From: Fidelibacterota bacterium
GTDB taxonomy: Bacteria; Fidelibacterota; UBA8477; JABMPR01
NCBI GenBank assembly: GCA_013202385.1
Contig: JABMOT010000300.1
Coordinates: 1 to 35,312 of the forward strand
Length of the DNA stretch: 35,312 bases
Reading direction: 5' to 3'
The first letter of the stretch is position 1; each line of letters opens with the position of its first letter. This document shows positions 7,181 to 24,409 of this stretch, piece by piece. A program made the translations under genes and the position numbers. The notes under the pieces were generated by a model. That model saw only the letters and a program-made list of their open reading frames with translations. It had not been told where the DNA came from and did no database searches.

Positions 7181-8263
7181 TTGATTGATCGCTTTCTCGA
7201 ACTGGCCCGATTAGATGCTCTTTCTGGCAATGAGCGTTCCGTAGCTGATTATCTTCTCGATTTTGCACGCACTCGAGGTCTCTCCCATCGAGAGGATGAT
7301 GCTGGAAGGGAGAATTCCAGCAGCGCCGGCAATGTCCTTATCACCTATGGGGACGGTGGAAAAACCCTTTTTATGTCTCACATGGACACGGCTCGCTCAA
7401 CCAAACGGCTCAAACCTGTCCTCCATGAAGATCGGATTACGTCAGATGGCCAAACGGTTCTTGGTGTGGATAATCGTGTGGGAATCACTGCCCTACTAAG
7501 TGCTTTGGATGTTATCGTATCACAAGGACTGCAATGCCCGGGGTTTACCCTAGTTTTCACAATCTGTGAAGAGAGCAGCCTCGCAGGCTCGAATTTTCTC
7601 TCCGTACCCGATAGCATTACCCAGGCATATGCCTTTGATTCCAGTTATCGTCCCGGTACCTATATTTGCCAGGCACCTGGAGCAAAGACTTTTGATGTTG
7701 AAGTGATTGGAAAAGCCTCACACTCAGGCATAGCTCCCGAAGCAGGGATTAATGCCCTGCAAATTGCTGCTCGAGCGATTGCAGAACTTCCTCTCGGTCG
7801 TGTAGACCAAGAATCTACCATGAACATCGGACCCTTTTCCTCCACAGCGGCGACCAATGTTATTCCACCGCGAGTAAAATTTACAGGTGAAATGAGATCA
7901 TCCACCATTGCCAAGGTCGAAGCGCTTGATTTATTTTTGCAGAAACATCTCTCTAAAATGCTGGATGGAACCGGTGCCACTTTTATATATGATTCTGCCT
8001 GGGATTTCCATCCCTATACCATTGAGACTGATGCTCCATTACGCCTCCGACTTGAAAACGCAATCACAGCAATCGGCTTAAAACCAGTCGGTTTGCATTC
8101 ATTTGGTGGCAGTGATGTAAATGTTCTCAATGGCAAAGGTGTTCCTGCCATCAACCTGGGAGTCGGAGCCCAGAATCCCCATTCAAATGATGAATTTATT
8201 CTTTTTGAGGATTTAATAAACGCTACTAAAATTGCACTGGAGCTCATGCGCAATGCGAACTAG
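7181..8263 (+). CDS. M20-family metallopeptidase (PepT-like), predicted cytoplasmic; TTG start
   Basis: MSHMDT, VLGVDNRVG, ICEESSLAGS, KASHSGIAPEAGINAL and terminal NPHSNDEF motifs. No signal peptide. Confidence 0.85.
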   Translation: MIDRFLELARLDALSGNERSVADYLLDFARTRGLSHREDDAGRENSSSAGNVLITYGDGGKTLFMSHMDTARSTKRLKPVLHEDRITSDGQTVLGVDNRVGITALLSALDVIVSQGLQCPGFTLVFTICEESSLAGSNFLSVPDSITQAYAFDSSYRPGTYICQAPGAKTFDVEVIGKASHSGIAPEAGINALQIAARAIAELPLGRVDQESTMNIGPFSSTAATNVIPPRVKFTGEMRSSTIAKVEALDLFLQKHLSKMLDGTGATFIYDSAWDFHPYTIETDAPLRLRLENAITAIGLKPVGLHSFGGSDVNVLNGKGVPAINLGVGAQNPHSNDEFILFEDLINATKIALELMRNAN

Positions 8264-9125
8264 AACCTTTTTTGCCCTTCCTTTAGTTACACTCTTCATG
8301 TCATGCCAGTCCGGTGCACCCGTTTACGAGAATATGGGTCATTTGATTATAATCGGAGGTGGAGAAAGAACTGCTGAGATCATGAAAAAAACGGTGGAAT
8401 TGGCCGGCGGGTCAGCATCTCGCTTTCTCATCATCCCCCAGGCCAGTAGTGAACCCCTGGAAACTGCACAATATCAACAGGCCGACATTCTAAAGTATGG
8501 TGCCGGTGAAGTCAGCTATTTGTTGCTGGATAGTAGCAATGTCGACTCAATCGGTCATCTGGAAAGCATCCGCCATGCAACGGCCATCTTTTTCTCCGGT
8601 GGAGATCAAATTAGACTCACTCGCCTGCTCCTGGGCACCCAATTGCTTGAAGAAATCAAAGCTTTATATCAGCGCGGCGGTCTGATCAGTGGAACCAGCG
8701 CTGGTGCGGCGATCCAGAGCGAATTAATGATTACTGGAGAAGAGCTGATCAATCAAGATGAGGATCGGCCATATAATACAATCGCTCCAAACAATATTGA
8801 GACTGTCCAGGGCTTTGGTTTTGTTCCTGAGGCCATCATCGATCAGCACCATATCAAACGTCGTCGTAATAATCGTGTTATCAGTGCTGTCCTGGAGCAT
8901 CCCGAATTGCTCGGAGTTGCCATCGATGAGAGCACGGCTATCCTGGTAAATCCCGATCGTAGTTTCCAGGTTTTAGGCGACGCCACAGTCATCGTTTATG
9001 ATGCCAGACATGCCCAAAATATAAGATTAGACAAGTTTAACAACTTCGCCGTTGATGATATGAAAGTCCAGCTGTTAATGAATGGTGACCGATTTAGCCT
9101 GATAACGGGGAAAAGGCTTCAATGA
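8253..9125 (+). CDS. Peptidase S51 family, cyanophycinase-like, predicted lipoprotein
   Basis: LIIIGGGER start motif, FFSGGDQIR, nucleophile elbow SGTSAGAA, DQHHIKRRRNNR and GVAIDESTA motifs. Signal MRTRTFFALPLVTLFMSC. Overlaps the upstream stop. Confidence 0.87.
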   Translation: MRTRTFFALPLVTLFMSCQSGAPVYENMGHLIIIGGGERTAEIMKKTVELAGGSASRFLIIPQASSEPLETAQYQQADILKYGAGEVSYLLLDSSNVDSIGHLESIRHATAIFFSGGDQIRLTRLLLGTQLLEEIKALYQRGGLISGTSAGAAIQSELMITGEELINQDEDRPYNTIAPNNIETVQGFGFVPEAIIDQHHIKRRRNNRVISAVLEHPELLGVAIDESTAILVNPDRSFQVLGDATVIVYDARHAQNIRLDKFNNFAVDDMKVQLLMNGDRFSLITGKRLQ

Positions 9126-10519
9126 CATCCATCCGCACTAAAACACCAGATACATTTGTAATATTGTTCTCAATATTGGTGGTTATTGCCGCTTTGACCT
9201 GGATCATTCCTGGAGGTGCTTTTGATAGCCATGAGATAAATGGACGCTCAGAGGTAATACCAGGGACCTTTCACCAGGTTGAAAGTGATCCCCAGGGCTT
9301 TGGAGCTGTCCTCATGGCTCCAATCAGAGGCTTCGTCGATGCAGCTCTTATCATCGGCTTTGTACTCCTGGTGGGTGGTGTTTTTGGGATATTGCAACGC
9401 ACGGGTGCCATCACTGCGGGTATCTCAACGCTTGCGAGGGCACATGATCGATCCAAGACAGTCCGAATCTTAATCATTCCCCTGTTTATGACCATTTTCT
9501 CTCTCGCCGGTGCCGTTTTTGGAATGAGTGAAGAGATCATTCCCTTCATTATCATATTTATACCTCTGGCTCTGAAAATTGGTTACGATAGCATGGTTGG
9601 TGTGGCAATCCCATTTCTTGGAGCGGGAGTTGGTTTCGCGGGCGCATTCTTGAATCCATTTACCGTTGGCATCGCACAGGGCATTGCAGAAGTCCCCTTG
9701 TTCTCAGGATTGGGTTATCGTTTTCTACTCTGGACTACCGTCACCACCATCGCAATTCTGTATGTGATGCACTATGCCAGGAGAATAAAAGAAGATCCAT
9801 CCCTGAGTATGACTTACGCGATTGATTTAAAAAAACGTGAAAAATATTTGGATGATACAGATAGCTCTCTCTCAATCCTTAGCTCTCAACATTACCAGGC
9901 CCTCCTGGTATTCGCTTCAGGCCTGCTGGTTCTGGTTTGGGGTGTCCTGGCCAGACAATGGTATATTGAAGAAATTGCCGGATTATTTCTGATCACAGGC
10001 ATTTTGGTGGGAATCGCTGGCCGCCTGAAGGTGAGCGAGATTACAGAATCATTTACTTCAGGAGCGAAGGATCTGGTCATGACTGCCCTGATCATTGGTC
10101 TCGCAAGAGGCATTTTGATTATCGCCAAGGATGGACAGATTATCGATACCATGCTGAATGCGCTCTCGGCTCAGATTATTTCTCTTCATCCAATCATTTC
10201 ATCGCAATTCATGTTCATGATTCAAACCATTGTCAATTTCTTTGTCCCCTCTGGCAGCGGCCAGGCAGCCTTAACCATGCCAATAATGGCTCCCTTATCT
10301 GATCTTGTAGGTGTCTCACGACAAACAGCCGTCCTCGCCTATCAAATGGGCGATGGTTTTGGGAATATGATTATTCCCACGTCTGCAGTGACAATGGGTG
10401 TGCTCACGTTGGCAGATATCCCCTGGCAGCGCTGGGCAAAATGGCTCCTACCCCTGGAACTTGTTTTTCTCGTACTTGGACTTTTCTTCCTAATCCCACC
10501 CTTTTTTATGGGTTGGTAG
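9122..10519 (+). CDS. YfcC-family membrane transporter
   Basis: 465 aa, strongly hydrophobic with many TM segments. N-terminal TPDTFVILFSILVVIAALTWIIPGGAF and NFFVPSGSGQAALTMPIMAPLSDLVGVSRQTAVLAYQMGDGFGNMIIPTSAVTMGVL are typical. ATGA overlap with the upstream gene. Confidence 0.87.
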   Translation: MTSIRTKTPDTFVILFSILVVIAALTWIIPGGAFDSHEINGRSEVIPGTFHQVESDPQGFGAVLMAPIRGFVDAALIIGFVLLVGGVFGILQRTGAITAGISTLARAHDRSKTVRILIIPLFMTIFSLAGAVFGMSEEIIPFIIIFIPLALKIGYDSMVGVAIPFLGAGVGFAGAFLNPFTVGIAQGIAEVPLFSGLGYRFLLWTTVTTIAILYVMHYARRIKEDPSLSMTYAIDLKKREKYLDDTDSSLSILSSQHYQALLVFASGLLVLVWGVLARQWYIEEIAGLFLITGILVGIAGRLKVSEITESFTSGAKDLVMTALIIGLARGILIIAKDGQIIDTMLNALSAQIISLHPIISSQFMFMIQTIVNFFVPSGSGQAALTMPIMAPLSDLVGVSRQTAVLAYQMGDGFGNMIIPTSAVTMGVLTLADIPWQRWAKWLLPLELVFLVLGLFFLIPPFFMGW

Positions 10520-10559
10520 GAATAGTTAATATTATCAATAACATAACGGAGGATTTATC

Positions 10560-11681
10560 ATGAAAAATGCTAGCAAAATCAGGCTTGGACTTCTCGTTCT
10601 GCTGCCAATTCTAGCCATGTCACAAGTTTATGTTAACTCAGATTCTATTGGCGTTTACCTCAAAAATTACGGTGAAATCGAGATCTGGGGACCCATGGCT
10701 CCCGGTGATCCTGTCAAACAAGTCGACCGTATCACTTTGCTGGTTGGCACGGATGAAACTGCCGTTTACGATTATTCTGAAGATGCTGACGTCGACGAGG
10801 CATCGGTTCTGATTGCAGATCCAACCCTTAGCGACATGGAGGGCTATACCAGCATCAACAATTTTTATTCATTCGCACCTCCAGATATTTTTGCCACAAT
10901 TTCCCCTTATGCCTGGAATGATGCTGAATATGTCATCGTTCATATGGTCGTAACCAACACTGCAGACACTGCCATTGATGCACGTGTAGGATTAGAGATC
11001 ATCCCCCAGATCGATGGTGATTATGATGGTATCAATACCTGGATGCCCGGGGGGAACTTCCTGGACATGACCCGTGGCAGCGGCAACCATATCGGTTTTA
11101 AGTTTTTATCCCATGGAATGGCTTCCCTTTCTCAATTCGTATGGTACAGTGGATATAATGATTCAGATGCCGATCTCTATAACTGGATGAACACCAACCA
11201 GATTGACACCGTCATGGTATGTACCAACCCCGATGATGGTATTGTATCAATCCCTGCAACAGGAGCGATAACTCTGGAACCCAACGTAGGCCTTGATTTC
11301 TATTATGGTGTTGCACGTGGATTAACTCTTAGTGCTCTTGAGGCGAATATGGTTGACCTCCAAACAGCCTATAATACCATTTTTACTGTTGGAGTTGACG
11401 ATATTGATCTTCACCCTGAAACTTTTAGTCTCTCTCAAAACTATCCCAACCCCTTTAACCCTTCCACTGAAATTAGTTTCTCATTACCTGCAGACGGCAT
11501 TGCATCCCTCGATCTGTTCAATCTCAGAGGTGAGCTTGTCGCATCGTTGCACAATGGCTGGATGGCTGCAGGTTCATATTCCCAGAGTGTGAATGGGTCA
11601 AATCTGCCATCGGGTATTTATATCTATTCTCTTACATCGAATGGCATTCAACTCACTAAAAAGATGACTTTACTCAAATAA
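10560..11681 (+). CDS. Secreted protein of unknown function with T9SS type A sorting domain
   Basis: Good RBS (ACGGAGG). Signal peptide. C-terminal SLSQNYPNPFNPSTEISFSL...GIYIYSLTSNGIQLTKKMTLLK. Confidence 0.87.
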   Translation: MKNASKIRLGLLVLLPILAMSQVYVNSDSIGVYLKNYGEIEIWGPMAPGDPVKQVDRITLLVGTDETAVYDYSEDADVDEASVLIADPTLSDMEGYTSINNFYSFAPPDIFATISPYAWNDAEYVIVHMVVTNTADTAIDARVGLEIIPQIDGDYDGINTWMPGGNFLDMTRGSGNHIGFKFLSHGMASLSQFVWYSGYNDSDADLYNWMNTNQIDTVMVCTNPDDGIVSIPATGAITLEPNVGLDFYYGVARGLTLSALEANMVDLQTAYNTIFTVGVDDIDLHPETFSLSQNYPNPFNPSTEISFSLPADGIASLDLFNLRGELVASLHNGWMAAGSYSQSVNGSNLPSGIYIYSLTSNGIQLTKKMTLLK

Positions 11682-11692
11682 ATTTAAGCGAA

Positions 11693-11719
11693 CTCGAGCC
11701 TGGATTTTCCAGGCTCGAG
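11693..11719 (+). terminator. Strong hairpin between the T9SS gene and the RpiR gene; terminator or regulator-binding site
   Basis: CTCGAGCCTGG-ATTTT-CCAGGCTCGAG, perfect 11-bp stem. No clear U-tract, so the terminator role is not certain. Confidence 0.6.
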
Positions 11720-11741
11720 AAATATTATCTGGACGCAATAA

Positions 11742-12575
11742 ATGGTAAAAGAACGTATACGATCTGTACATCAGGATTTACCGCCTAACCAAAAATTATT
11801 GGCGGAGTTTATCCTGAATCACCTGGAAGAGATTTCCTTTTGGAGCATTCACAATTTAGCCAGCCAAGCGGGGACCAGCTCTGCCAGTGTTGTTCGATTT
11901 GCTCAACGCTTGGGATATGCTGGATATCCTGCTCTGCGTGAGGATATTGTTAATATTCTGAAAACCGAAATCAACCGTGACCACGTATCACGCATTGAGA
12001 CCCTTGAGGGTGATGTTCTGAGTCGGGTCGCCAATCAGGATGTCCAGGACATCAACGATACACTTAAGCAAATCAACCGTTCAGATTTCAATGCTGCAGT
12101 GGATTTTATTCTGGTTGCCAAAAGGGTTTATACGGCCGGGTTAGGGATTTCAAATTTGATGTCGGAAATTTTGGCCTATCAGCTGAATCAGGTTGGAATT
12201 GCTGCCAGCCCCCTCCGTTCTGGACCTTCCAGCTTTTTAGAACAACTCGCTTTTTTTGATAAGGATGACCTCCTGATTGCCTTCTCGTACCCGCCATACT
12301 CTGAGGAAACGATTAAACTGGCAAAACTTTCACGAAAGAAAGGTCTTAAGGTTCTGGCAATCACCAACAAACCAGCTGCACCAGTAAGCTTTCATTCAGA
12401 TGTTGTTTTATCGGTAAAGAGTGAGAATGTTCTTTTCACAAATGCCTTTGCTGCCATTTCTGTAATAATAAATGCCTTAGCCACAGAATGTGCCCATCGC
12501 GATAAAACAAAAGCACAATCAATGTTATCACACTTTCAAACCATTAATGGAATCTCTGATGAACAGAACACCTAG
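11742..12575 (+). CDS. MurR/RpiR family transcriptional regulator (HTH plus SIS domain)
   Basis: N-terminal LPPNQKLLAEFILNHLEEISFWSIHNLASQAGTSSASVVRFAQRLGYAGYPALRED is a canonical RpiR HTH. SIS-like AKRVYTAGLGISNLMSEILAYQLNQVG. Confidence 0.92.
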   Translation: MVKERIRSVHQDLPPNQKLLAEFILNHLEEISFWSIHNLASQAGTSSASVVRFAQRLGYAGYPALREDIVNILKTEINRDHVSRIETLEGDVLSRVANQDVQDINDTLKQINRSDFNAAVDFILVAKRVYTAGLGISNLMSEILAYQLNQVGIAASPLRSGPSSFLEQLAFFDKDDLLIAFSYPPYSEETIKLAKLSRKKGLKVLAITNKPAAPVSFHSDVVLSVKSENVLFTNAFAAISVIINALATECAHRDKTKAQSMLSHFQTINGISDEQNT

Positions 12576-15102
12576 ACGAGCAAGTTTTATCCAATCTCGG
12601 AAATTAAGCCGCTTCATCCTTCTTTTGATAGGACTCCCGGTCATCCTATTGTCTGGAGTCACGGGAAAACTTAGCGGGACTATAACAGACGCAGATGATC
12701 AGACTCCTATAATTGGGGCAACCATTCAGCTGGTAGGCACAAATTATGGACGAATTTCAGATGCATCCGGTCATTTTATTATCCTGAATATTACACCGGG
12801 AAACTACGATGTTAAAATCTCCTTTATAGGTTATGAAACCGTTATCATTGAGAGTCTTGATATCAGGGTTGATCTAACATCCACTATTGAAGTCAATATG
12901 CGACCTGCAGTGCTTGAAGGCGAAGCGGTCGTGGTGACAGCTGCTACCGTTTCCATCAATATGGATCTGACTGCCTCCATGGCTGTTATTACCCAGGAAC
13001 AATTTGATGCCCTGCCTATTGCTGATGTTGGCGATGCGCTGGCACTCCAGGCAGGGGTTGTAGGATCTGGTTCAAATTTAAATATCAGGGGTGGCCGTTC
13101 CAATGAAGTCGCTTATCTGATTGATGGTATGTATGTCCAGGATCCACTATTGGGGGGATTTGCTACAGATCTGGGCAACGATGCCATTCAAGAAATGAGT
13201 CTCTTGAGTGGAACGTTTAATGCTGAATATGGCAATGCGCTCAGCGGTGTGGTAAATATCGTAACCCGAGAAGGTGGTCGTCATTGGAGTGCCCGAGTTC
13301 AAAGCCGGGTTGGGTCGTTTCATTATGGCAAAGACAGTCTCAAAGCCGAAGGTGGACGCGTGAACTGGTTATTGAGCGGACCCTTGATTGAAGACAATCT
13401 GGCTCTTTTTGTTTCAGGAGAGCATACTGGACACGATGGCTATCTGCCCTTTGGGTTTAATACAGCAGATTCCTATTTCGCAAAACTGACATTTACCGGG
13501 ATCAGCCGATTGAAGGTGAATACAATGTATCGGAATTCATGGCGAAATTGGCAAAATTACAGCCACTCCTGGCTGTATGCTCCAGAACAATATTACCAAT
13601 ACAGTTCCTCTAGTGAGCAAATCGCACTGAATTTGACTCACACATTGTCAGAACGGCTCTTCTATGAGTTTCGTGTTTCCCAATTCAAGCAACACTTTCG
13701 CCAGGGAATCTGGCTTGACACAGACAGCACGGATCATTGGATGAGAGTGGATGAATATGTTCCATGGAATGAGTATCAGCTTAACCCAGATGCGGGAAAC
13801 GGTCATGAATTCTATTCTTATGGCAATCCTCCCACTTATGTGGACAGCGAAAGTAAAACAATCGATGTTCGCGGTGATATGGTCTGGCAGCCCGGTAGAT
13901 GGAATGAAATAAAAACAGGGATTCAGATCAAATCCCACCAGTTGAAGTTGTTGGATATTTACGATCCCCAACGTGATCACCCCTATATTGATGACTATGA
14001 AGAAGCCCCTTTTGAGCTCGCTGCCTATATTCAGGATAAAATTGAATTTCCATACCTGGTAATCAATCTCGGGCTACGCTTTGACAATATGGACGGCAAT
14101 GCAGCCTATCGGAATGACCCCCTCCTCGATACGGTGCTGACCCCGGCGGCATCCAGAAGCCAGATCAGTCCCAGATTGGGAATTGCCCATCCAATTTCAG
14201 ATCGAACAAAAATCCATTTTGCGTACGGTCATTTTTTTCAAAACCCAGAATACCAATATCTGTATGAAAATTCTCAGTATGATGTGACCGTGAGAGAGCC
14301 CCTTTTTGGACAGCCAAATCTGGATGCTGAAAGAACGGTTGCCTACGAGGTCGGTCTATCCCACCAGTTTAACGATGCCCTGGTCGGTCGTTTCACAGCA
14401 TATTATAAGGACATTACAGGGTTGATCGGTACCCATTACTACCCTCCATATACAGATGAAGCTCCCAATCAGTATGTTGGCTACACCCTCATCGTGAATG
14501 AAGATTACGCCAATACCAAAGGGTTTGAAGTGAATCTGGATTATAATGCTGGACGTCGAATCGCCGGCAGCATCACCTATACATTTTCTGTCGCCAAAGG
14601 GAGTGCTTCTTCAGAGGGTGAACAATACCCTGGAACCTCTGAGTCTACACGACTCTACTTCCTGGATTTTGACAAAGCACATGGATTTAACGCATTTGGC
14701 AGTTGGAGATTGGGAAACCGAGAAGGACCCAGATTGGGAGATTTCTTCCCCTTCGCCAAAACCGAAATTGGCTTTATTCTCCGAGCCAGCACGGGCTACC
14801 CCTATACTCCCAGCGGACGCGATGTTGGATTTGTAGAATTGAACTCCCTAAGACGGCCAGCTACCTATTCCATCGATATCGAAGCGGGACGAGAATTTCC
14901 ACTCCCTGGTAAACTCTATGGGCGGCTCTTTTTAGAAGTTTTGAATTTATCCAATGTCTCCAATATTCGCTATGTGTACTCAGATACTGGAGATCCGGAT
15001 TACACCTTGGTCGGCGGGCATAGTGAAGCATACATGCGCGATCCTTCAAATTATGGCCCCCCAAGAAATTTTCGTCTTGGCCTTACACTTGGATGGGAGT
15101 AG
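12559..15102 (+). CDS. TonB-dependent receptor with N-terminal carboxypeptidase-regulatory-like domain
   Basis: GKLSGTITDADDQTPIIGATIQLVGTNYGRISDASGHFIILNITPG; plug VGDALALQAGVVGSGSNLNIRGGRSNEVAYLIDGMYVQDPL; NAEYGNALSGVVNIVTREGG. The ORF is open from 12490, but M at 12559 gives MNRTPRRASF with a signal peptide. Confidence 0.92.
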   Translation: MNRTPRRASFIQSRKLSRFILLLIGLPVILLSGVTGKLSGTITDADDQTPIIGATIQLVGTNYGRISDASGHFIILNITPGNYDVKISFIGYETVIIESLDIRVDLTSTIEVNMRPAVLEGEAVVVTAATVSINMDLTASMAVITQEQFDALPIADVGDALALQAGVVGSGSNLNIRGGRSNEVAYLIDGMYVQDPLLGGFATDLGNDAIQEMSLLSGTFNAEYGNALSGVVNIVTREGGRHWSARVQSRVGSFHYGKDSLKAEGGRVNWLLSGPLIEDNLALFVSGEHTGHDGYLPFGFNTADSYFAKLTFTGISRLKVNTMYRNSWRNWQNYSHSWLYAPEQYYQYSSSSEQIALNLTHTLSERLFYEFRVSQFKQHFRQGIWLDTDSTDHWMRVDEYVPWNEYQLNPDAGNGHEFYSYGNPPTYVDSESKTIDVRGDMVWQPGRWNEIKTGIQIKSHQLKLLDIYDPQRDHPYIDDYEEAPFELAAYIQDKIEFPYLVINLGLRFDNMDGNAAYRNDPLLDTVLTPAASRSQISPRLGIAHPISDRTKIHFAYGHFFQNPEYQYLYENSQYDVTVREPLFGQPNLDAERTVAYEVGLSHQFNDALVGRFTAYYKDITGLIGTHYYPPYTDEAPNQYVGYTLIVNEDYANTKGFEVNLDYNAGRRIAGSITYTFSVAKGSASSEGEQYPGTSESTRLYFLDFDKAHGFNAFGSWRLGNREGPRLGDFFPFAKTEIGFILRASTGYPYTPSGRDVGFVELNSLRRPATYSIDIEAGREFPLPGKLYGRLFLEVLNLSNVSNIRYVYSDTGDPDYTLVGGHSEAYMRDPSNYGPPRNFRLGLTLGWE

Positions 15103-15103
15103 G

Positions 15104-17947
15104 ATGATGAATATTAGTCACAAATCCACATCACAATTTCTGGTTACAGCTTTTCTGACAATCATCCTTATGGCGATCCAGTCACCCTCTTTAGAGGCTG
15201 GCGAAAACTATAGAGATAGACAGAATCCAGCTGAGTCTCTCGCGAAGGCGGCTGATATTACGGATCGTGCAGCCGGCACACACAATGGCAGCAATATTGG
15301 ACTGTTCTTCGAAAACCGGGGAAAATTATATCCCAGAAGACTCGCTGATGGTCCATCCGGTGAGTTCCCTATCAATAGCGGTCATCATTATATCTACCGT
15401 ATCAATCCCTTCGTCGGTGTCGCCCCTGATACAGATTCAGGACGCCAGGCAAATATGATCCAGGGTCGTTATACTGAGAATGAAGAATGGGAAGCCGTTG
15501 GTGGTTATCATAATCCAGATTTTGCCCGTGTAGCCATGAGTGATCAGCCCAACACCTGGCCAATCTCAGGCTGGCCGGTTAAGGATGAGGCTGGCAATCC
15601 CATTATTGTCTCCAGCCAGGATAGTTATTGTGTCTTCGATGATCAAAATAACACGGTGGAGGAGCTGGGCATACAAATGGCTCAAACTGGCTATGCCTTC
15701 GGATTGGCCTATGCTGAAGACCTGCTATTTTTCACATATGAAATTACCAATAATTCTGCGACCACTTACGATAGCGTCTATTTCGCTATGTATCTGGATT
15801 TCGATATAGGAAATATTAGTGGTGGCGATCCTGAATATCTGGACGATGTCCTGGGTTTCGACGCTGCAAATGATTTCGTAACGCTTCGAGATGCCACTGA
15901 TTATTCAGCGGAATGGGGCGGTGCTACGGGAATATTCGGTATGACCTTTCTGGAGACTCCGTCCATGGGCGGGATTACAGACCTGCACTATAATCTGGCC
16001 GGCGGTGATATTGATGATGATTCACTTCAGCTGGTGATCTTGTCCAGCAATCAGGATTATCTTCCTTCAAACTTTTTGGTAGATGACTATATCCACACAG
16101 GCAGCGATGGGAATGTTCACATCGATGATGTGAGTCTGATTGACCCAGCCTCAAATTCTGAATATGTCATTACCATGTCAGCAGGTCCTTTCAATCTAGG
16201 TCCCAATGATACACTAAAATTTATCACTTGTATCGTCGCTGGCGTAAATGAAGCAGATTTATATAACAATTTAGCGGTAGCCCAGGACCTGTACGCACTG
16301 GACTTCGAAACACCAAAACCACCTGTTACACCTTCGCTAAGCGCTGTGGCAGGCAGCAATGAAGTCACGCTTTATTGGACCAACGCCATTGAGGGTCTGG
16401 CCGATGAAATTTCGGGGATTCTGGATTTTGAGGGTTACAATCTTTATAGAAGCGTGGATCGCGGCACTAGCTGGGATCAAATTGATAGAAACACCTTTCC
16501 AGAAACCGGAGCGGAAGCAGTTCCCCTGGCAAGTTTCGATCGCTTGAATGGAATTGGTGAGGATCTGGGGATCAAATATTCCTATACCGACAATTCCGTA
16601 ATCAATGGCTTTGAGTACTGGTATTCACTCACGGCCTTCGATCAGGGAGATACCCTCATCATCAGTCTAGAGAGTCCCATTGGTAATACCACGGCTGCAG
16701 TCAACACAATTAGTATCATTCCCCTCTCCACAGCCGCTGCATCTGTTCCTGCAACAATGGCAAATATCCACCATTTTGGGACCGGTATTTCCAATTATTC
16801 TATCAATGCTATCCCGCTGAGTATCAGCCAGTTAAGTGACTACAGCTATAGAATGTATTTTGATTATATTGGTCGTTCTGAAATTGGCAATACTGGCGTG
16901 GAAGCCCTTGCGGTAATTCTGGATTCAAGTCTTACAGGAAATGATCATTATGGCGTGGAATTTGTCCCTGCTAATAAATTTAATTTGCATAATATGACCA
17001 CTGGAGAAGTCATTCGAGAAGGCTACCCATTCAGAGTGGGTGTGAGTTACACCCTCGCTCCGGGAATGAAGATTGAGTTTCAAATTACTGACACAAGTAA
17101 AGCACCGAGTCCAGGAGATTACCTGAGTCTCAACTTTTCAGTTATGCTGGAACAGATAGCTGGCCAAGATACACTTGTGGTGCTCCCCTGGCAGAAGTTT
17201 GATGAAAGGACTCAATTGGTATCAGTTGATGGTCTCCTACTTTCATTGACTCCTCAGGTGGAATTACAAGATATCGACATCCCTCCCGTCCTCGATTTTG
17301 ATCTCAACTTTGTGGTTGAAAACCCCGATGCCCTACTGGATAGTTCATACCAGATTAACATTATCGGTTCTTCAATGGATACATCAAATCTACGCTTTTT
17401 AATTGTGAGTATTCTGAATAGTGACCTTAGCTATGTCATTGAAGCAGACACCGTTTTTGACGGTGAATCGTTAAGTTTTAATGGTATCTCCGTTTCTTTT
17501 GACTTCAATCCAGATAATCCTCCACCTGCAGGCACAACCGCGACCCTGACTTCAGTACCTGCATTGTCTCCAAATATTCAGGATGGTTTCCAATTTGGGA
17601 TTCTGGATAGCAGAACAGATTTTAACAAATTGGAGGAATCGCTTTCGGCTATTCGCGTGGTTCCAAACCCTTATGTGGTTGGATCTTTGTGGGAGATTGA
17701 ATTTGGTGAATTGCGAAGAGAGCCCTTGCGGCAGATTCAATTCACAAACCTGCCTTCTGAATGTGATATTTATATCTTTACATTGGCCGGTGGATTGATA
17801 AAAACATTGTCGCATGAGTCGATCACAGGAACCGAGATATGGGATATGCGGGCCGAAGGCGGACGTGAAATAGCTGCCGGCATCTACCTCTATCAGGTCA
17901 AAGCCGCTAACTTTGAATATTTTAATCGTTTTGCGGTGATCAAATGA
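15104..17947 (+). CDS. Large secreted protein with VVPNPY-type C-terminal (T9SS-like) domain
   Basis: Starts right after the receptor stop (TAGGATGATG). C-terminal IRVVPNPYVVGSLWE...GREIAAGIYLYQVKAANFEYFNRFAVIK. The ORF is open from 14954, but the in-frame ATG at 15104 precedes a signal peptide. Confidence 0.85.
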   Translation: MMNISHKSTSQFLVTAFLTIILMAIQSPSLEAGENYRDRQNPAESLAKAADITDRAAGTHNGSNIGLFFENRGKLYPRRLADGPSGEFPINSGHHYIYRINPFVGVAPDTDSGRQANMIQGRYTENEEWEAVGGYHNPDFARVAMSDQPNTWPISGWPVKDEAGNPIIVSSQDSYCVFDDQNNTVEELGIQMAQTGYAFGLAYAEDLLFFTYEITNNSATTYDSVYFAMYLDFDIGNISGGDPEYLDDVLGFDAANDFVTLRDATDYSAEWGGATGIFGMTFLETPSMGGITDLHYNLAGGDIDDDSLQLVILSSNQDYLPSNFLVDDYIHTGSDGNVHIDDVSLIDPASNSEYVITMSAGPFNLGPNDTLKFITCIVAGVNEADLYNNLAVAQDLYALDFETPKPPVTPSLSAVAGSNEVTLYWTNAIEGLADEISGILDFEGYNLYRSVDRGTSWDQIDRNTFPETGAEAVPLASFDRLNGIGEDLGIKYSYTDNSVINGFEYWYSLTAFDQGDTLIISLESPIGNTTAAVNTISIIPLSTAAASVPATMANIHHFGTGISNYSINAIPLSISQLSDYSYRMYFDYIGRSEIGNTGVEALAVILDSSLTGNDHYGVEFVPANKFNLHNMTTGEVIREGYPFRVGVSYTLAPGMKIEFQITDTSKAPSPGDYLSLNFSVMLEQIAGQDTLVVLPWQKFDERTQLVSVDGLLLSLTPQVELQDIDIPPVLDFDLNFVVENPDALLDSSYQINIIGSSMDTSNLRFLIVSILNSDLSYVIEADTVFDGESLSFNGISVSFDFNPDNPPPAGTTATLTSVPALSPNIQDGFQFGILDSRTDFNKLEESLSAIRVVPNPYVVGSLWEIEFGELRREPLRQIQFTNLPSECDIYIFTLAGGLIKTLSHESITGTEIWDMRAEGGREIAAGIYLYQVKAANFEYFNRFAVIK

Positions 17948-18960
17948 GGACCCTGAGGATGAATTATAGAACAATGAGGGTTAGAGCCCTATTCACTTTG
18001 ATCTTTGCCACATTGGTTTCAGGTCAAAATCCCAACCTTGGATCAGCTGCTGCTCAATTTCTCAAGATACCTGTTGGAGCCAGATCAGCCGCTCTGGGCG
18101 GTGCTATGACAGGGATGTCCACTGATGCGACTGCCCTATTCTGGAATCCGGCTGGAATTGCACAGGATCATTCACACTCCGTGCATTTCTCTCAGGTTCC
18201 CTGGATGACCTACTTCAATTTAACGGCAGTGGGTTACACACTTAATTTACATGATCTGGGAACATTAGGGTTTCATGCCGTAGGATTGGGCATGGAAAAA
18301 ATGGAAATCACAACTGAATTGCAACCTGATGGAACTGGCCAATTCTTCGATTCTCAGGATATAGTAATCGGCGCATCGTATGCCCGAAAACTGACGGACC
18401 GTTTTAGCATGGGTTTTACCACTAAATATGTTTATCAGAGGATTTGGAATGAGACTGCCTCAGGTATCGCGTTTGATGTTGGCACCCATTACAGTATTGA
18501 TTTTCTAAACACAGCCATTGCAATGTCTATGCGAAATTTTGGAGCTGATCTTCAATTTGAAGGACCAGATCTGCTCATCGTTCATGATGACAACGATCTC
18601 TTCCCAAATCGCCTGCTCCAGGCATCGAAACAAACTGAAAAATATCCATTACCACTAAGCTTTCAATTCGGGCTGTCCTCAGATCTCATTCATTCGACCT
18701 TCTTCAATGCCAGATTGGGTATTGATGCAGTACATTTGAATGATGAAAATGAGCAGATCAGAATCGGACTTGAAGGCAGTGTAGTCCAGCGCTTCTTCCT
18801 CCGCGGAGGCTATCAATTTAACAATGATGTGGACGCTGGAAGTCTGGGCGTGGGTTTACAACAACGTATCGATAACACGATTATCAAACTGGATTATGCC
18901 TATGTGCTGCATAAACACCTTGAAGATAATCGTTTCCTCTCATTGAGCCTGGTATTCTAG
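17944..18960 (+). CDS. PorV/PorQ family outer-membrane protein
   Basis: GSAAAQFLKIPVGARSAALGGAMTGMSTDATALFWNPAGIAQ is a family hallmark. ATGA overlap with the upstream gene; alternative start at 17959. Confidence 0.9.
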   Translation: MRTLRMNYRTMRVRALFTLIFATLVSGQNPNLGSAAAQFLKIPVGARSAALGGAMTGMSTDATALFWNPAGIAQDHSHSVHFSQVPWMTYFNLTAVGYTLNLHDLGTLGFHAVGLGMEKMEITTELQPDGTGQFFDSQDIVIGASYARKLTDRFSMGFTTKYVYQRIWNETASGIAFDVGTHYSIDFLNTAIAMSMRNFGADLQFEGPDLLIVHDDNDLFPNRLLQASKQTEKYPLPLSFQFGLSSDLIHSTFFNARLGIDAVHLNDENEQIRIGLEGSVVQRFFLRGGYQFNNDVDAGSLGVGLQQRIDNTIIKLDYAYVLHKHLEDNRFLSLSLVF

Positions 18961-20474
18961 TGAAACCATTTATCACCGAAAACCTTCCGCAGCCTGGAGT
19001 GAAGTGGTTGTTTAAGCTCTGCATTTTAACTCTGTTTATTGCTCACTCATTAGGGGCTCAGATTTCTGAAGCACTCGAGCATAATACCCAGCTCACCAAT
19101 TATGCCGAATTAACTCGGATTGTCAAAGATCTCGATTCAGATTCTCGATTTACCGTGACCGAGGCAGGCAAAAGTGGCGAAGGTAGATCCTTGTGGCTGA
19201 TTCGGATTTCAGATCCTATGCGAACAGCCAAATGGCGCGTCTTCTTTTATGCTCAGCAACATGGGAATGAACCGGCTGGGAAGGAAGCCCTGATCTATCT
19301 TGCCAAAGCCATTCAGGAAAACCCAAAACTGTTAGGTCGTGGAATTGAATTATGGCTCATGCCCATGGTGAATCCTGATGGTGCTGAACGGGATCAGCGT
19401 AGAAATGCAGTGGACGCAGACCTGAATCGCGATCACATGATTTTGGAACAACCAGAAACACAGGCTTTGCACAAAACGTTTAGAGCTATTCTACCCCATT
19501 TGGCCATTGATTGCCATGAATTTGCCAGAGACAGCGATGATTATATGGAAAAGGGCTGGATCGAGTGGACAGAAATCATGATGGATTTTGCCAATTATCC
19601 CCTCCTCGATGATGCCCTCGTTATAGAGGGCGCTGGACTGGTTAATCGAGTCGGCAAAGCCATGCTCAAGCAGGGAGTCCATTTTCAGCGCTATTTTGTT
19701 GGCGGGGTTCCTCCTGACGGAGAACAACGCTATAGTGCTCCCGATATGGACGGTGGTTTGAATGGAGCTGCTATTTATGGCGGGCTTTCATTTATCATTG
19801 AAGGCGGCGTTTATCGGAAGGACAATGAAGACAATCATGATTTACCCAAACGTGTGAATAACTACACTCGATTGCTTTTAGAGGTTCTGAAGGACAAAAA
19901 GATTCGAAGGCAGACTCTTGCCTTACTTAACCGCCAGACGAAGCCAGAGCTGCCAATTTGGATTCCAAACAACTATTTCTGGGCTAAATCAAGTGAAGCG
20001 ACACTGAATATCCCGGTAATAGACAGTCAGACTCAGAATGTTATGCAAATTCCAGCCCCGAATTTCATGCCTGACCTGGTCATTAAAAAAAGTGTATCCA
20101 GACCTCAGGCTTACTTGATTCAGCCAGAACATGCAGCTGTTTTTAGCGAACTATTGCAGCAACATGCAATCCCCTTTGATGTGATACAGCAACCCGCTAC
20201 CTATCAAATTCAATATTGTTTACTGGATACTGTTGAAATGGAATTCGATGACCTCTATCATAGGTATGGTGGGCGCGTTATTTCCTCTATGCAAGCAGTT
20301 GAGAGTCACAGGGTTGAAGCGGGTTCTCTATTCGTCCCTGTGGATATGAAAAATGGATTGCGGGCAATGGCAATTCTTGAACCAACCCAGATGTTTGGCC
20401 TCTATCAATATCCCACTTATTTCAAGCTGGTCGCAAGTGATCGAAGATTGCCAGTGGTCCGTCTCATAAAATAG
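18960..20474 (+). CDS. Secreted M14-family zinc carboxypeptidase
   Basis: FYAQQHGNEPAGKEA (HxxE), DLNRDHM, AIDCHEF (zinc His) and SFIIEGG (catalytic Glu). Signal peptide. GTG start overlapping the previous TAG (TAGTG). Confidence 0.88.
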   Translation: MKPFITENLPQPGVKWLFKLCILTLFIAHSLGAQISEALEHNTQLTNYAELTRIVKDLDSDSRFTVTEAGKSGEGRSLWLIRISDPMRTAKWRVFFYAQQHGNEPAGKEALIYLAKAIQENPKLLGRGIELWLMPMVNPDGAERDQRRNAVDADLNRDHMILEQPETQALHKTFRAILPHLAIDCHEFARDSDDYMEKGWIEWTEIMMDFANYPLLDDALVIEGAGLVNRVGKAMLKQGVHFQRYFVGGVPPDGEQRYSAPDMDGGLNGAAIYGGLSFIIEGGVYRKDNEDNHDLPKRVNNYTRLLLEVLKDKKIRRQTLALLNRQTKPELPIWIPNNYFWAKSSEATLNIPVIDSQTQNVMQIPAPNFMPDLVIKKSVSRPQAYLIQPEHAAVFSELLQQHAIPFDVIQQPATYQIQYCLLDTVEMEFDDLYHRYGGRVISSMQAVESHRVEAGSLFVPVDMKNGLRAMAILEPTQMFGLYQYPTYFKLVASDRRLPVVRLIK

Positions 20475-20638: not shown

Positions 20639-22132
20639 ATGAAATCTAGACTGCTTATCACATTGGCTTTCTTTCTATTGACATCCTGTGCATTCATTTT
20701 ACCACCAGAAACGAAGACGACCTTAGGGACTGATACACAATTTTGGTATCAGGATAGCACGCTGCAAAATCTGCTTGATGTTAACACCAGTTCCTCCCTA
20801 AGGACTGATAATAGTGTCCGCCTGCTGGTAAATGGTGTGTCAAGTTTTGCCCGGCGATACGAAAACATCCGCTCGGCGACCTTTATCTTTGTAAAAACCT
20901 TTCTGTTCACTGATGATGAGGCTGGGAGGGAGATGGCCAGAGTCCTGGCAGAAAGAGCTCAAGCTGGAATTCCCGTTGTTCTACAATACGATGTTAAAGG
21001 GTCCATTGAATCTGCTACGGTTGTTGTGGACATGTTTGCACAATCCACTCCCATGCTACCATTTGGCGAAAAGCGCATCATTCATGAAATGCGAAAAGCG
21101 GGTGTGATTATTGTTCCCACAAACGCGCCGAGCCGACCCTATGAATTGACCGAATGGACAGAAAATATTGAGAGATTGTTCCAAAACCCTGTTGCTGCCT
21201 TGAAGCGATCGGGAGAATCACTTATTCTGTACGATTATTGTGACCACGAAAAGTTCTTTATTACTGGCCACGAAGGAGGTGAGATCCGGGCAATAGTCGG
21301 TGGCATGAACATCGCCGGCGAGTACGCCTTCGGGGGCATTCCCGATCGAAGAGACACTGTGAGTGCTAAGGCTGGGTGGCATGATGTTGATGTTGAAGTC
21401 CGTGGCCCGGCAGCAGCTGAAATCTGTGAAGAGTTTCTGAAGGATATGAGAAATCAGACAGGCCGTGAACTACCATCAATATTGACAGAAATATCAAATA
21501 GGTATGCAGCTAAACCTGACTCGAGCTACGGTGAAGCCACTGTCCGATTTGTGGTTCATCATCCCCTTGTCGATCGCAGCAGATCCGTGGAAGAACTTTA
21601 TCTTATCTTACTGAAGAGTACTCCCGCAGAAGAACCCATCTTTATTGCCACTGCATATTTTGCACCTTCAAAGCGGATTCGAGAAGCAATAACTGAGCAT
21701 GCAAAACGCGGTGGTAAGGTTATCGTTCTGACGAACTCCCTGGAGTCAAACAACCATCCAATTCTATCTGTAGCAGCTAATTTTGCTGCACTTGATATCA
21801 TGGAGGTTACAACTAATTTCCAGCTCTATGAGTGGATACCCAGACCCGCAGATGGTGAAGAAACCATGCACCAAAAACTCGCATCATTCGGTCAGAATGG
21901 ACCGACCATAGTGGGCTCATTTAATCTGGATGCCCAAAGCGCGGTCCACAATACGGAGTCCGTAGTGCTTATAAATGACCCGACATTCAGGGATAACATA
22001 GATGTATTAACTCAATACTATTTGAGTCCGGCCTGTTCCAAGCGCGTTCATCGAGAGGATCTCGAGACAAAACCAATCCTAAATCGAATCCACTCTTTTC
22101 TGACCCACGAGCTAGCCTGGTACTGGCTATAA
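20639..22132 (+). CDS. Phospholipase D-like / cardiolipin synthase-like lipoprotein
   Basis: Lipobox FFLLTSC. HKD-like HEKFFITG...GGMNIAGEY and HQKLASFG...VGSFNLDAQS. WHDVDVEVRGPAA. Confidence 0.85.
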   Translation: MKSRLLITLAFFLLTSCAFILPPETKTTLGTDTQFWYQDSTLQNLLDVNTSSSLRTDNSVRLLVNGVSSFARRYENIRSATFIFVKTFLFTDDEAGREMARVLAERAQAGIPVVLQYDVKGSIESATVVVDMFAQSTPMLPFGEKRIIHEMRKAGVIIVPTNAPSRPYELTEWTENIERLFQNPVAALKRSGESLILYDYCDHEKFFITGHEGGEIRAIVGGMNIAGEYAFGGIPDRRDTVSAKAGWHDVDVEVRGPAAAEICEEFLKDMRNQTGRELPSILTEISNRYAAKPDSSYGEATVRFVVHHPLVDRSRSVEELYLILLKSTPAEEPIFIATAYFAPSKRIREAITEHAKRGGKVIVLTNSLESNNHPILSVAANFAALDIMEVTTNFQLYEWIPRPADGEETMHQKLASFGQNGPTIVGSFNLDAQSAVHNTESVVLINDPTFRDNIDVLTQYYLSPACSKRVHREDLETKPILNRIHSFLTHELAWYWL

Positions 22133-22259: not shown

Positions 22260-23261
22260 TCAAGCATCTGACAGAGTTTGGAGTCTCTCGATAGCTGCGT
22301 TTAATTTAGCGATCGCAGTGCTACGATCATCTGTAGTCAAGTCTTTCAGATTGATATTCAGCGAGAAACCACACAGTGATTCATTCAATTTATCAGATGC
22401 ATCTTCGTCGGTGTGCCCCAGGAGAACCTCATAAACATCGACCACTCGGTCAAAGCCTTTGACTTGAATGGAATCTTTCTTGATACAGGGAATATCTTCA
22501 CGGACCAGACTCCAGGTATCATGAGAGATTTGAATACTACCTGGTGCAGCATTTGACTCCAGGCGGCTGGCCAGGTTAACCCGATTGCCAATAATGGTGT
22601 AATCCATGCGCTCTTCACTCCCAAAATTTCCCACAGTACAATAGCCTGTGGTGATTCCCATTCGAACTTGAAAGTTCTGAGCGATGCCTTTGGGAGCCCA
22701 GAGTTGTTCCAGGTCCGCAATGGCTGCCTGCATATCAACGGCCATTTGAACGCAGGACCTTGCGTCCTCACCAATACCCTTAGTCTCTGGATCACCGAAA
22801 AAGACCAGTATGGCATCACCAATGAATTTGTCAAGTGTGCCACCGTGCTTTAGAACGATTTGAGCCATTTTATCAAGATAGGAGTTGAGCAAATATGTCA
22901 GATCTTCAGGCTCCATTTCATCTGTTTGACTGGTAAACCCTACAATGTCAGAAAAGAAAATGGTTAGTTTTTTTCGATATGTTTCGAGACGCACATCTCT
23001 GGCACCGCTGAAAATTGAGGAATAGACCTGTGGAGACAGGTATTTAGCCAGTTTTTTGGCAAGCACTTCAAGCTCATCGTTTTTATGACGAACCAGTGCT
23101 TCCTGGGCTTCAATTTCTTTATTTAAAGTAATGAAAAGCGAAGAATTTCTATCCCACATTTTCTCCAGGGAAACGCGATTTGCTTCAGAGCGAGCCAACT
23201 TCTTGCTCAGGAAACGAATTTCCTTCTCAAGTGAGGCAATATCCTGTGCGGGATCGCTCAA
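22260..23261 (-). CDS. Class III nucleotide cyclase (predicted adenylate cyclase) with N-terminal coiled coil
   Basis: FFSDIVGFTSQTD and LDKFIGDAILVFFGDP metal/base motifs; MDYTIIGNRVNLASRLE. Heptad-like N-terminus ASLEKEIRFLSKKLARSEANRVSLEK. Confidence 0.92.
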   Translation of the reverse strand: MSDPAQDIASLEKEIRFLSKKLARSEANRVSLEKMWDRNSSLFITLNKEIEAQEALVRHKNDELEVLAKKLAKYLSPQVYSSIFSGARDVRLETYRKKLTIFFSDIVGFTSQTDEMEPEDLTYLLNSYLDKMAQIVLKHGGTLDKFIGDAILVFFGDPETKGIGEDARSCVQMAVDMQAAIADLEQLWAPKGIAQNFQVRMGITTGYCTVGNFGSEERMDYTIIGNRVNLASRLESNAAPGSIQISHDTWSLVREDIPCIKKDSIQVKGFDRVVDVYEVLLGHTDEDASDKLNESLCGFSLNINLKDLTTDDRSTAIAKLNAAIERLQTLSDA

Positions 23262-24409
23262 ATATCACCAATTACGAGACTCACAAAGGTCTCATTGTGA
23301 AGACGAGTCGCCCCTCCCCGTTCTAGTGGTGCAATTTCTCCATAGGCATAAAAACCGCCAACGGGTATACCTGGGACTGCGTCGCGGAGCAGCTGAACTT
23401 CTTCCTGGGTCCTGGTTCCCAGAAGCATCTTTCTGCCGGCACATGACACACACAGGATGCCTGAAGGTGTGGTTCCAGGGTACGAGGAAAGGGCATGGGT
23501 AACTGAATCGCTAGCTGCTTCGATAACATTATCTCTCGTCGCATGGGTAATCTGAACCCAGGCGTCTGCCGGTATATCCCCGACCATGGTTAAACTCCCA
23601 TCTGTGTTTTCACCCAGTATAGGTGATCTCAGATAGAAGGTTTTAAATGCTTCGTCATCAAAAACGGCCAGGGGGTATTCACCGAGCGTATCAAGATTTT
23701 GTCCCAGATAACGTTCGTAGAACGCGGCTGCGGTCTCATCTCCAATGCGTTTGATAGTTCCAGAACCAACTGATGTAGCCCTTGCTGGTTTGCCTATGGG
23801 CTGCCACCCACTACTCACAGAATGAGAAAATAGAATAGGACCTGAAACCAGCAGATAGGGAATCGCATCAGATAATACTTCATGATTGAAAAACTGATAT
23901 GACTTTTCGAAGCGCCATTGATCTCCTGCATTCCCGCCAATAAGGGTGCAATGTTCCCCCAGCGCTTTGCGCATTTCAGTCACAACCCCGTCTGAACTCG
24001 TCGTTAGACTGGAACTGGTCATAAAGCACAACTTTGGCGCTTCTATATTGGCCAGATTCGCCTGGATCGATTCATGGATAATCTCACCAGGATTTTTGGA
24101 GATTTCCTTTGCCACTCCAGCATGAAAATTGATCGTGTCTGATGCAAATAGAGTGAGCACAACACCGTCCTCGGTGAATCCTCTCTCGCTGGAGAGCTCA
24201 CCGTCTGTGGTGCAACCAATGAGAGCAATTCCCGGGAAAGCGGCATTCAAACCATCAACTAGCGTCTGAAATTCATGATCGATTGCCGCATACAAAATAC
24301 CCGCCTTCGGTATCTCTGCACCGAGTTGCGATCGACATTGTTCTATTACTTCAGCGATGGCATCCGTTGAATCGATGTCCTCACTATGACCAATCACCAT
24401 TTTTAGCAT
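23258..24409 (-). CDS. FIST-domain signal sensor protein (FIST_N plus FIST_C)
   Basis: AGILYAAIDHEFQTLVDGLNAAFPGIALIGCTTDGELSSERGFTEDGVVLTLFAS; GGNAGDQWRFEKSYQFFN; late LCVSCAGRKMLLGTRTQEEV...PVGGFYAYGEIAPL. Confidence 0.9.
   Translation of the reverse strand: MLKMVIGHSEDIDSTDAIAEVIEQCRSQLGAEIPKAGILYAAIDHEFQTLVDGLNAAFPGIALIGCTTDGELSSERGFTEDGVVLTLFASDTINFHAGVAKEISKNPGEIIHESIQANLANIEAPKLCFMTSSSLTTSSDGVVTEMRKALGEHCTLIGGNAGDQWRFEKSYQFFNHEVLSDAIPYLLVSGPILFSHSVSSGWQPIGKPARATSVGSGTIKRIGDETAAAFYERYLGQNLDTLGEYPLAVFDDEAFKTFYLRSPILGENTDGSLTMVGDIPADAWVQITHATRDNVIEAASDSVTHALSSYPGTTPSGILCVSCAGRKMLLGTRTQEEVQLLRDAVPGIPVGGFYAYGEIAPLERGGATRLHNETFVSLVIGDI

Follow-up and report, generated by a model that had tools for sequence, protein, structure and literature searches.

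Cyanophycin (multi-L-arginyl-poly-L-aspartate) is an arginine-aspartate nitrogen polymer stored by cyanobacteria, and its recycling by bacteria that do not produce it is poorly mapped. Clusters that combine a cyanophycinase, an isoaspartyl dipeptidase and a transporter have been described in genomes without cphA1 (PMC10206079); that work names Flammeovirga pacifica WPAGA1 as having a cyanophycin-scavenging cluster and cites a cyanophycin utilization locus from strain L21-Spi-D4 (Ben Hania 2017, as cited in PMC10206079). The same source identifies enzymes annotated as M14 or as succinylglutamate desuccinylase/aspartoacylase as beta-Asp-Arg hydrolases, and describes the isoaspartyl dipeptidases of Firmicutes and Bacteroidota as undiscovered (PMC10206079). 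Here we describe a nine-gene locus on a contig from a Fidelibacterota bacterium (assembly GCA_013202385.1, contig JABMOT010000300.1; the window, meaning the whole 35,312-nucleotide stretch analysed) in which an S51 cyanophycinase is grouped with M20 and M14 metallopeptidases and a capture module, and which probably serves to scavenge external cyanophycin, judging from gene content and conservation.

Contig C287, the window, comes from a 72% complete genome of 3.17 Mb in 318 contigs (G000; G-numbers denote phylum genomes and L-numbers extracted loci). Comparisons drew on the surroundings of S51 genes found among 245 genomes of Ca. Neomarinimicrobiota, a phylum for which another record uses the name Fidelibacterota, and on a wider set of 80 GTDB loci around S51 genes; the genomes compared are incomplete. 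All nine genes listed in the first-pass annotation are present and intact on the plus strand, in two tightly packed strings (Table 1). Block A comprises the M20, S51, YfcC and type IX secretion system (T9SS) cargo genes, with overlaps of 11 bp between M20 and S51 and 4 bp between S51 and YfcC, and with the cargo gene following 40 bp after YfcC. A 60-bp gap with a strong hairpin parts it from block B, in which the RpiR, TonB receptor, second cargo, PorV-family and M14 genes overlap or abut. Gene packing alone could be ordinary; conservation of the arrangement across phyla goes beyond chance.

By sequence, the window S51 is a cyanophycinase. Its score exceeds the curated cyanophycinase cut-off, and its nearest solved structures are the cyanophycinases 7uqv and 3en0. 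At CphB positions 101, 132, 172-174, 178, 180, 183 and 201, which we take to be the catalytic Ser/His and pocket residues, all nine residues are identical in the window protein and in all 88 aligned relatives. Its initial description as a lipoprotein remains plausible for the window protein, with a signal read by eye as ending in LFMSC, and does not extend to four locus-linked orthologues, in which no Cys follows the signal; lipidation would therefore be lineage-specific on this by-eye reading. A second, larger S51 with a near-complete cyanophycinase pocket (QSD[T/S]HRRR[D/E]) occurs in many relatives' loci, T9SS-tailed in some genomes, and was not found in the 72%-complete window genome.

A reading of the window alone had proposed that the two blocks work as a single utilisation system, analogous to a polysaccharide utilisation locus (PUL), whose substrate would be an unusual peptide polymer. 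The neighbourhood comparison suggested with that proposal has now been made, and the conserved linkage of the two blocks across families and phyla supports it. The order M20 - S51 - YfcC - RpiR - TonB - T9SS cargo - PorV - M14 is found again, in varying form, in several Ca. Neomarinimicrobiota families, in Ignavibacterium and in Calditrichota. Two relatives (G225 and G226) carry M20-S51-YfcC-cargo-RpiR-TonB; in G226 cargo-PorV-M14 comes next, and G225 has it on a second contig. Genomes from other families (G002, G202, G205, G206) retain M20-S51-(YfcC)-RpiR-TonB, and in two of them (G202, G206) there follow cargo and PorV genes, then further genes, M14 and a T9SS-tailed second S51. Among the 80 GTDB loci, the block is present in Ignavibacterium (L053) and Calditrichia (L056), and another Ignavibacteriota genome (L057) has M20-S51-S51b-M14. 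Shorter versions in the complete genome of Bacteroidales bacterium CF (L072) and a relative (L066) consist of SusC-like, SusD-like, adhesin-like, M20, S51, YfcC and M14 genes, with SusC/SusD (assigned by eye) at the position of TonB-cargo-PorV. The substrate can be narrowed to cyanophycin, as far as sequence allows, because the S51 belongs to the curated family, retains all pocket residues and shares with a published scavenging cluster the combination of S51 and YfcC.

The two metallopeptidases form clades of their own around this locus. In the M20 protein, the metal-binding and catalytic residues H67, D69, D97, E130, E131, D153 and H334 are invariant in seven loci; its closest solved structures belong to the peptidase T family (3gb0, E 9e-49; 3rza, E 9e-45), it falls below the PepT-like cut-off, and its clade is restricted to 9 of the 245 phylum genomes. 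Residues HGNE, NRD, H186 and E281 are likewise invariant among the locus M14 proteins, whose clade (>400 bits) occurs in seven phylum genomes, all of them inside the nine with the M20 clade (Fisher p ~4e-12, without kinship correction). Within the window's genus, S51, M20 and M14 occur together in three genomes and are jointly absent from 16. We considered the M14 protein as a CphZ orthologue and found no support for this, as it scored 22.0 bits against AstE_AspA (PF24827, used as a proxy for the CphZ type; cut-off 25) and a profile search returned no CphZ-named structure. Its structure prediction (mean pLDDT 44.7, from an alignment of four sequences) was too poor for a fold search.

With no IadA above cut-off in any of the 245 phylum genomes and no IaaA match in five of the eight locus genomes (the 72%-complete window genome, G002, G202, G205 and G206), no IaaA or IadA is detectable in the window genome, and M20 and/or M14 therefore probably performs the last step, hydrolysis of beta-Asp-Arg, in their place. 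Mutual exclusivity of M20 and IaaA was dropped as support for this assignment, as the 80 loci divide into nine with M20 only, eight with IaaA only, one with both and 62 with neither (Fisher p = 1). Chemically, beta-Asp-Arg may be regarded as aminosuccinyl-arginine, which would place it near the N-succinyl amino acids used by ArgE/DapE-type M20 enzymes, AstE-type M14 enzymes and the racemase-like enzyme encoded in some loci.

CphA1 is above cut-off in 15 of the 245 genomes, beside a different, storage-type S51, and these CphA1-linked S51s form their own clade (99% SH-aLRT, seven sampled). Storage clusters of CphA1 and CphB occur in other Neomarinimicrobiota (G124:C310, G095:C71, G093:C29, G068:C39, G131:C105), with IaaA also encoded on the short contig in some cases. 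None of the eight locus genomes, including that of the window, has CphA1 above cut-off, which is consistent with scavenging and not decisive.

In the transport part of the locus, YfcC repeatedly adjoins S51 across loci, and relatives' loci carry an NhaC/ArcD-like transporter in addition. G225, G226 and Ignavibacterium (L053) retain the T9SS type-A cargo in the corresponding position, and the VVPNPY-tail cargo is retained between the TonB and PorV genes in relatives; the structure prediction of the latter (mean pLDDT 39.0, from an alignment of four sequences) was too poor for a fold search. The receptor reaches 90 bits on the SusC model TIGR04056 (cut-off 368), no SusD match was found in the scanned window genes, and the PorV-like protein belongs only to the broad PorV/PorQ family (73.9 versus 250 bits on PorV proper, NF033710). 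Secretion through T9SS is plausible, since the SprA translocon is above cut-off in the window genome (contig C90). About ten further triads of TonB receptor, VVPNPY-type cargo and PorV-family protein lie elsewhere in this genome without these peptidases (L144-L156), some of them close to other transport genes, so that the triad seems to be an uptake module of general use that this locus has recruited, and is possibly a SusCD-like module of these phyla. Our literature search for PorV/TonB or cyanophycin in connection with Marinimicrobia found nothing useful.

In the pathway that we propose, the TonB receptor, its surface partner and the PorV-family protein would capture the polymer or its oligomers and pass them to the periplasm, where the exported S51 would cut the backbone into beta-Asp-Arg dipeptides and the M14 enzyme may strip arginine or cleave dipeptides. 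YfcC would import the dipeptide or arginine across the inner membrane, the cytoplasmic M20 would split beta-Asp-Arg into Asp and Arg in place of IaaA/IadA, and RpiR would sense a product and control the locus.

Several observations weigh against this assignment to cyanophycin scavenging. The lack of CphA1 in all eight locus genomes would be expected by chance about half the time (p = 0.54), and IaaA is present in three of them (G187, G225 and G226), lying 3.5 kb upstream of M20 in G226. Arginase and ADI gave no match, and no ornithine aminotransferase was above cut-off, in the 72%-complete window genome; arginine catabolism was accordingly dropped as support. In addition, one genome (G186) keeps M20-YfcC and M14-NhaC pairs without any S51, which indicates that such pairs can serve other substrates, and a gene resembling N-acyl amino acid racemases, for which cyanophycin use has no need, is found in some loci. 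Separately, 20 of the 80 loci, mostly from Flavobacterium (including L081, L084 and L089) and also L085, L111 and L080, have an ornithine-aminotransferase-like gene no more than 10 kb from S51, which ties S51 to arginine use by an independent route.

The last two of these adverse observations favour a different substrate: N-acyl amino acids, or peptides other than cyanophycin that are isoaspartyl or rich in arginine or lysine. S51 would then cut beta-aspartyl peptides generally, and M14, M20 and the racemase-like enzyme would act on N-acyl-arginine-type compounds. The M20 and M14 proteins do fall in superfamilies that include N-acyl amino acid hydrolases, and an OSBS/N-acyl amino acid racemase-type gene stands beside M20 in two Neomarinimicrobiota (G225, G226) and beside M14 in two Bacteroidales; however, that gene is absent from the window and from most loci, and the S51 pocket is fully conserved in a family curated for cyanophycinase, so we regard this alternative as rather unlikely. 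In G186, the M20-YfcC pair is followed by apparent arginine-biosynthesis genes assigned by eye (argC, argB and an aminotransferase; L157 9324-18356).

Alternatively, the blocks could be two separate systems that adjoin by chance, one operon for the use of peptides or arginine and another, unrelated, for TonB/T9SS uptake, as the hairpin between them and the peptidase-free triads elsewhere in the genome might suggest. The hairpin was noted in the initial reading and is borne out, none of 200 shuffles being as good; it has a perfect 12-bp stem (CTCGAGCCTGGA-TTT-TCCAGGCTCGAG). Equally strong hairpins occupy the same place in G225 and G226 (L032 2268-2319; L033 13521-13582), that of G225 with paired changes in both arms, which suggests a role at the RNA level. 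A canonical intrinsic terminator was rejected, as there is no T-run and the element is missing from the terminator scan. Against a division into two systems, the blocks stay adjacent in several families and three phyla, also in loci without such a hairpin, and M14 presence follows M20 presence genome by genome; we consider the division quite improbable.

The RpiR regulators bear on the remaining alternative, muropeptide or peptidoglycan scavenging with M14 as a murein tripeptide amidase, which was raised at the outset. RpiR regulators often bind phosphosugars, but the SIS loop is an invariant PPYS in nine of nine RpiR proteins from three phyla where the solved 4ivn regulator has SGST, an exchange that argues against a phosphosugar as the effector. 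The pairing of the Bacteroidales M14 with an enolase-superfamily epimerase-like gene resembles mpaA-ycjG of E. coli, but these neighbours are of OSBS/NSAR type (above the TIGR01928 cut-off) and not L-Ala-D/L-Glu epimerases, the window M14 reaches only 15.2 bits on the MpaA model NF007897 (cut-off 157) and cyanophycinase is not a murein enzyme, leaving this idea weakened and most improbable.

Cyanophycin scavenging thus remains our preferred reading. Two concrete enzyme clades are tied to a cyanophycinase in four phyla, including in the complete Bacteroidales bacterium CF genome, and are candidates for the enzyme called undiscovered in Bacteroidota (PMC10206079). A TonB-cargo-PorV module also recurs in the SusC/SusD position. 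We tentatively suggest that the M20 clade linked to the locus could represent a previously undescribed class of enzymes that hydrolyse the cyanophycin dipeptide and have no relation to IaaA/IadA, a class to which the exported M14 clade possibly belongs as well. This would explain part of the isoaspartyl dipeptidase activity that is reported to be undiscovered in Bacteroidota. Equally tentatively, the triads of TonB receptor, T9SS cargo and PorV could serve Neomarinimicrobiota, Ignavibacteriota and Calditrichota as a SusCD-like module for uptake.

Elsewhere in the window, a cardiolipin-synthase-like PLD gene (20639-22132) starts 164 bp downstream of M14; none was seen next to the M14 genes of relatives' loci. 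On the minus strand, the genes for a FIST-domain sensor and a class III adenylate/guanylate cyclase overlap (22260-24409). A 1546-aa secreted protein with CotH kinase, lamin-tail and beta-helix domains and a T9SS tail is encoded at 29749-34389.

Table 1. Features of the locus in the window, and two gene types found in other loci
Feature	Position	Strand	Basis
M20 metallopeptidase, PepT-like, without export signal	7181..8263	+	PF07687/PF01546 above cut-off; TIGR01883 214 bits (cut-off 274)
S51 cyanophycinase, exported, probable lipoprotein	8253..9125, best start ATG 8253	+	TIGR02069 178.7 bits (cut-off 126.6)
YfcC/DcuC-family inner-membrane transporter	9122..10519	+	PF03606 372.6 bits; NF008611 (basic amino acid antiporter YfcC) 420.5 bits (cut-off 500)
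Secreted protein with T9SS type-A tail, no assigned function	10560..11681	+	PF18962 and TIGR04183 above cut-off
Strong hairpin between blocks	11692..11719	+	z = -4.8
RpiR-family regulator with altered SIS phosphosugar loop (PPYS)	11742..12575	+	PF01418, PF01380
TonB-dependent receptor, carboxypeptidase-regulatory-like N-domain	start ~12559, end 15102	+	PF13715, PF07715
Exported 948-aa cargo, VVPNPY-type tail, presumed surface partner of receptor	15104..17947	+	PorZ tail match only; no Pfam match
PorV/PorQ-family outer-membrane protein	17944..18960	+	NF033709 200 bits (cut-off 90)
M14 metallopeptidase, exported	18960..20474	+	PF00246 62.9 bits
OSBS/racemase-type gene	L033 7610-8722; L032 7083-8276; L066 13938-15044; L072 14097-15200		
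Second larger S51	L038 15378-17057; L161 815-2491; L159 222-2117; L057 10785-12857; L085 1988-3907		

Compared with described cyanophycin utilization and scavenging clusters, the window shares a cyanophycinase with a clustered transporter (S51/YfcC) and the lack of cphA1, but has M20 and M14 in place of IaaA or IadA. A clustered IaaA or IadA defines those clusters and was looked for without success, so the window locus is a variant of the scavenging cluster and not a member of it. The Flammeovirga pacifica locus (L085) reads S51b - SusC-like - SusD-like - lipoprotein - S51 - IaaA - YfcC - S51-like - ornithine aminotransferase; both loci have S51, YfcC and TonB-type capture genes, the window having TonB-cargo-PorV instead of SusC/SusD, M20 where Flammeovirga has IaaA, and M14 in addition. 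Like a PUL of the SusC/SusD type, the locus sets TonB capture genes beside degradative enzymes, a transporter and a regulator, but its enzymes are peptidases and not glycoside hydrolases, SusD is missing and the receptor is under the SusC cut-off.

At the level of single enzymes, the window S51 has the curated family and the catalytic and pocket residues in common with CphB, CphE and CphI, and differs from them in being exported, in lying in a probable scavenging locus and in belonging to a clade apart from the phylum's CphA-linked CphB. The M14 enzyme shares with CphZ (M14/AstE-AspA type; PMC10206079) an M14-like superfamily and a cyanophycin gene context, but is nearer to zinc carboxypeptidases, exported and longer. 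Finally, the peptidase T family supplies the nearest solved structures to the window M20, which differs from that family in its score below the TIGR01883 cut-off and in forming its own locus-linked clade.

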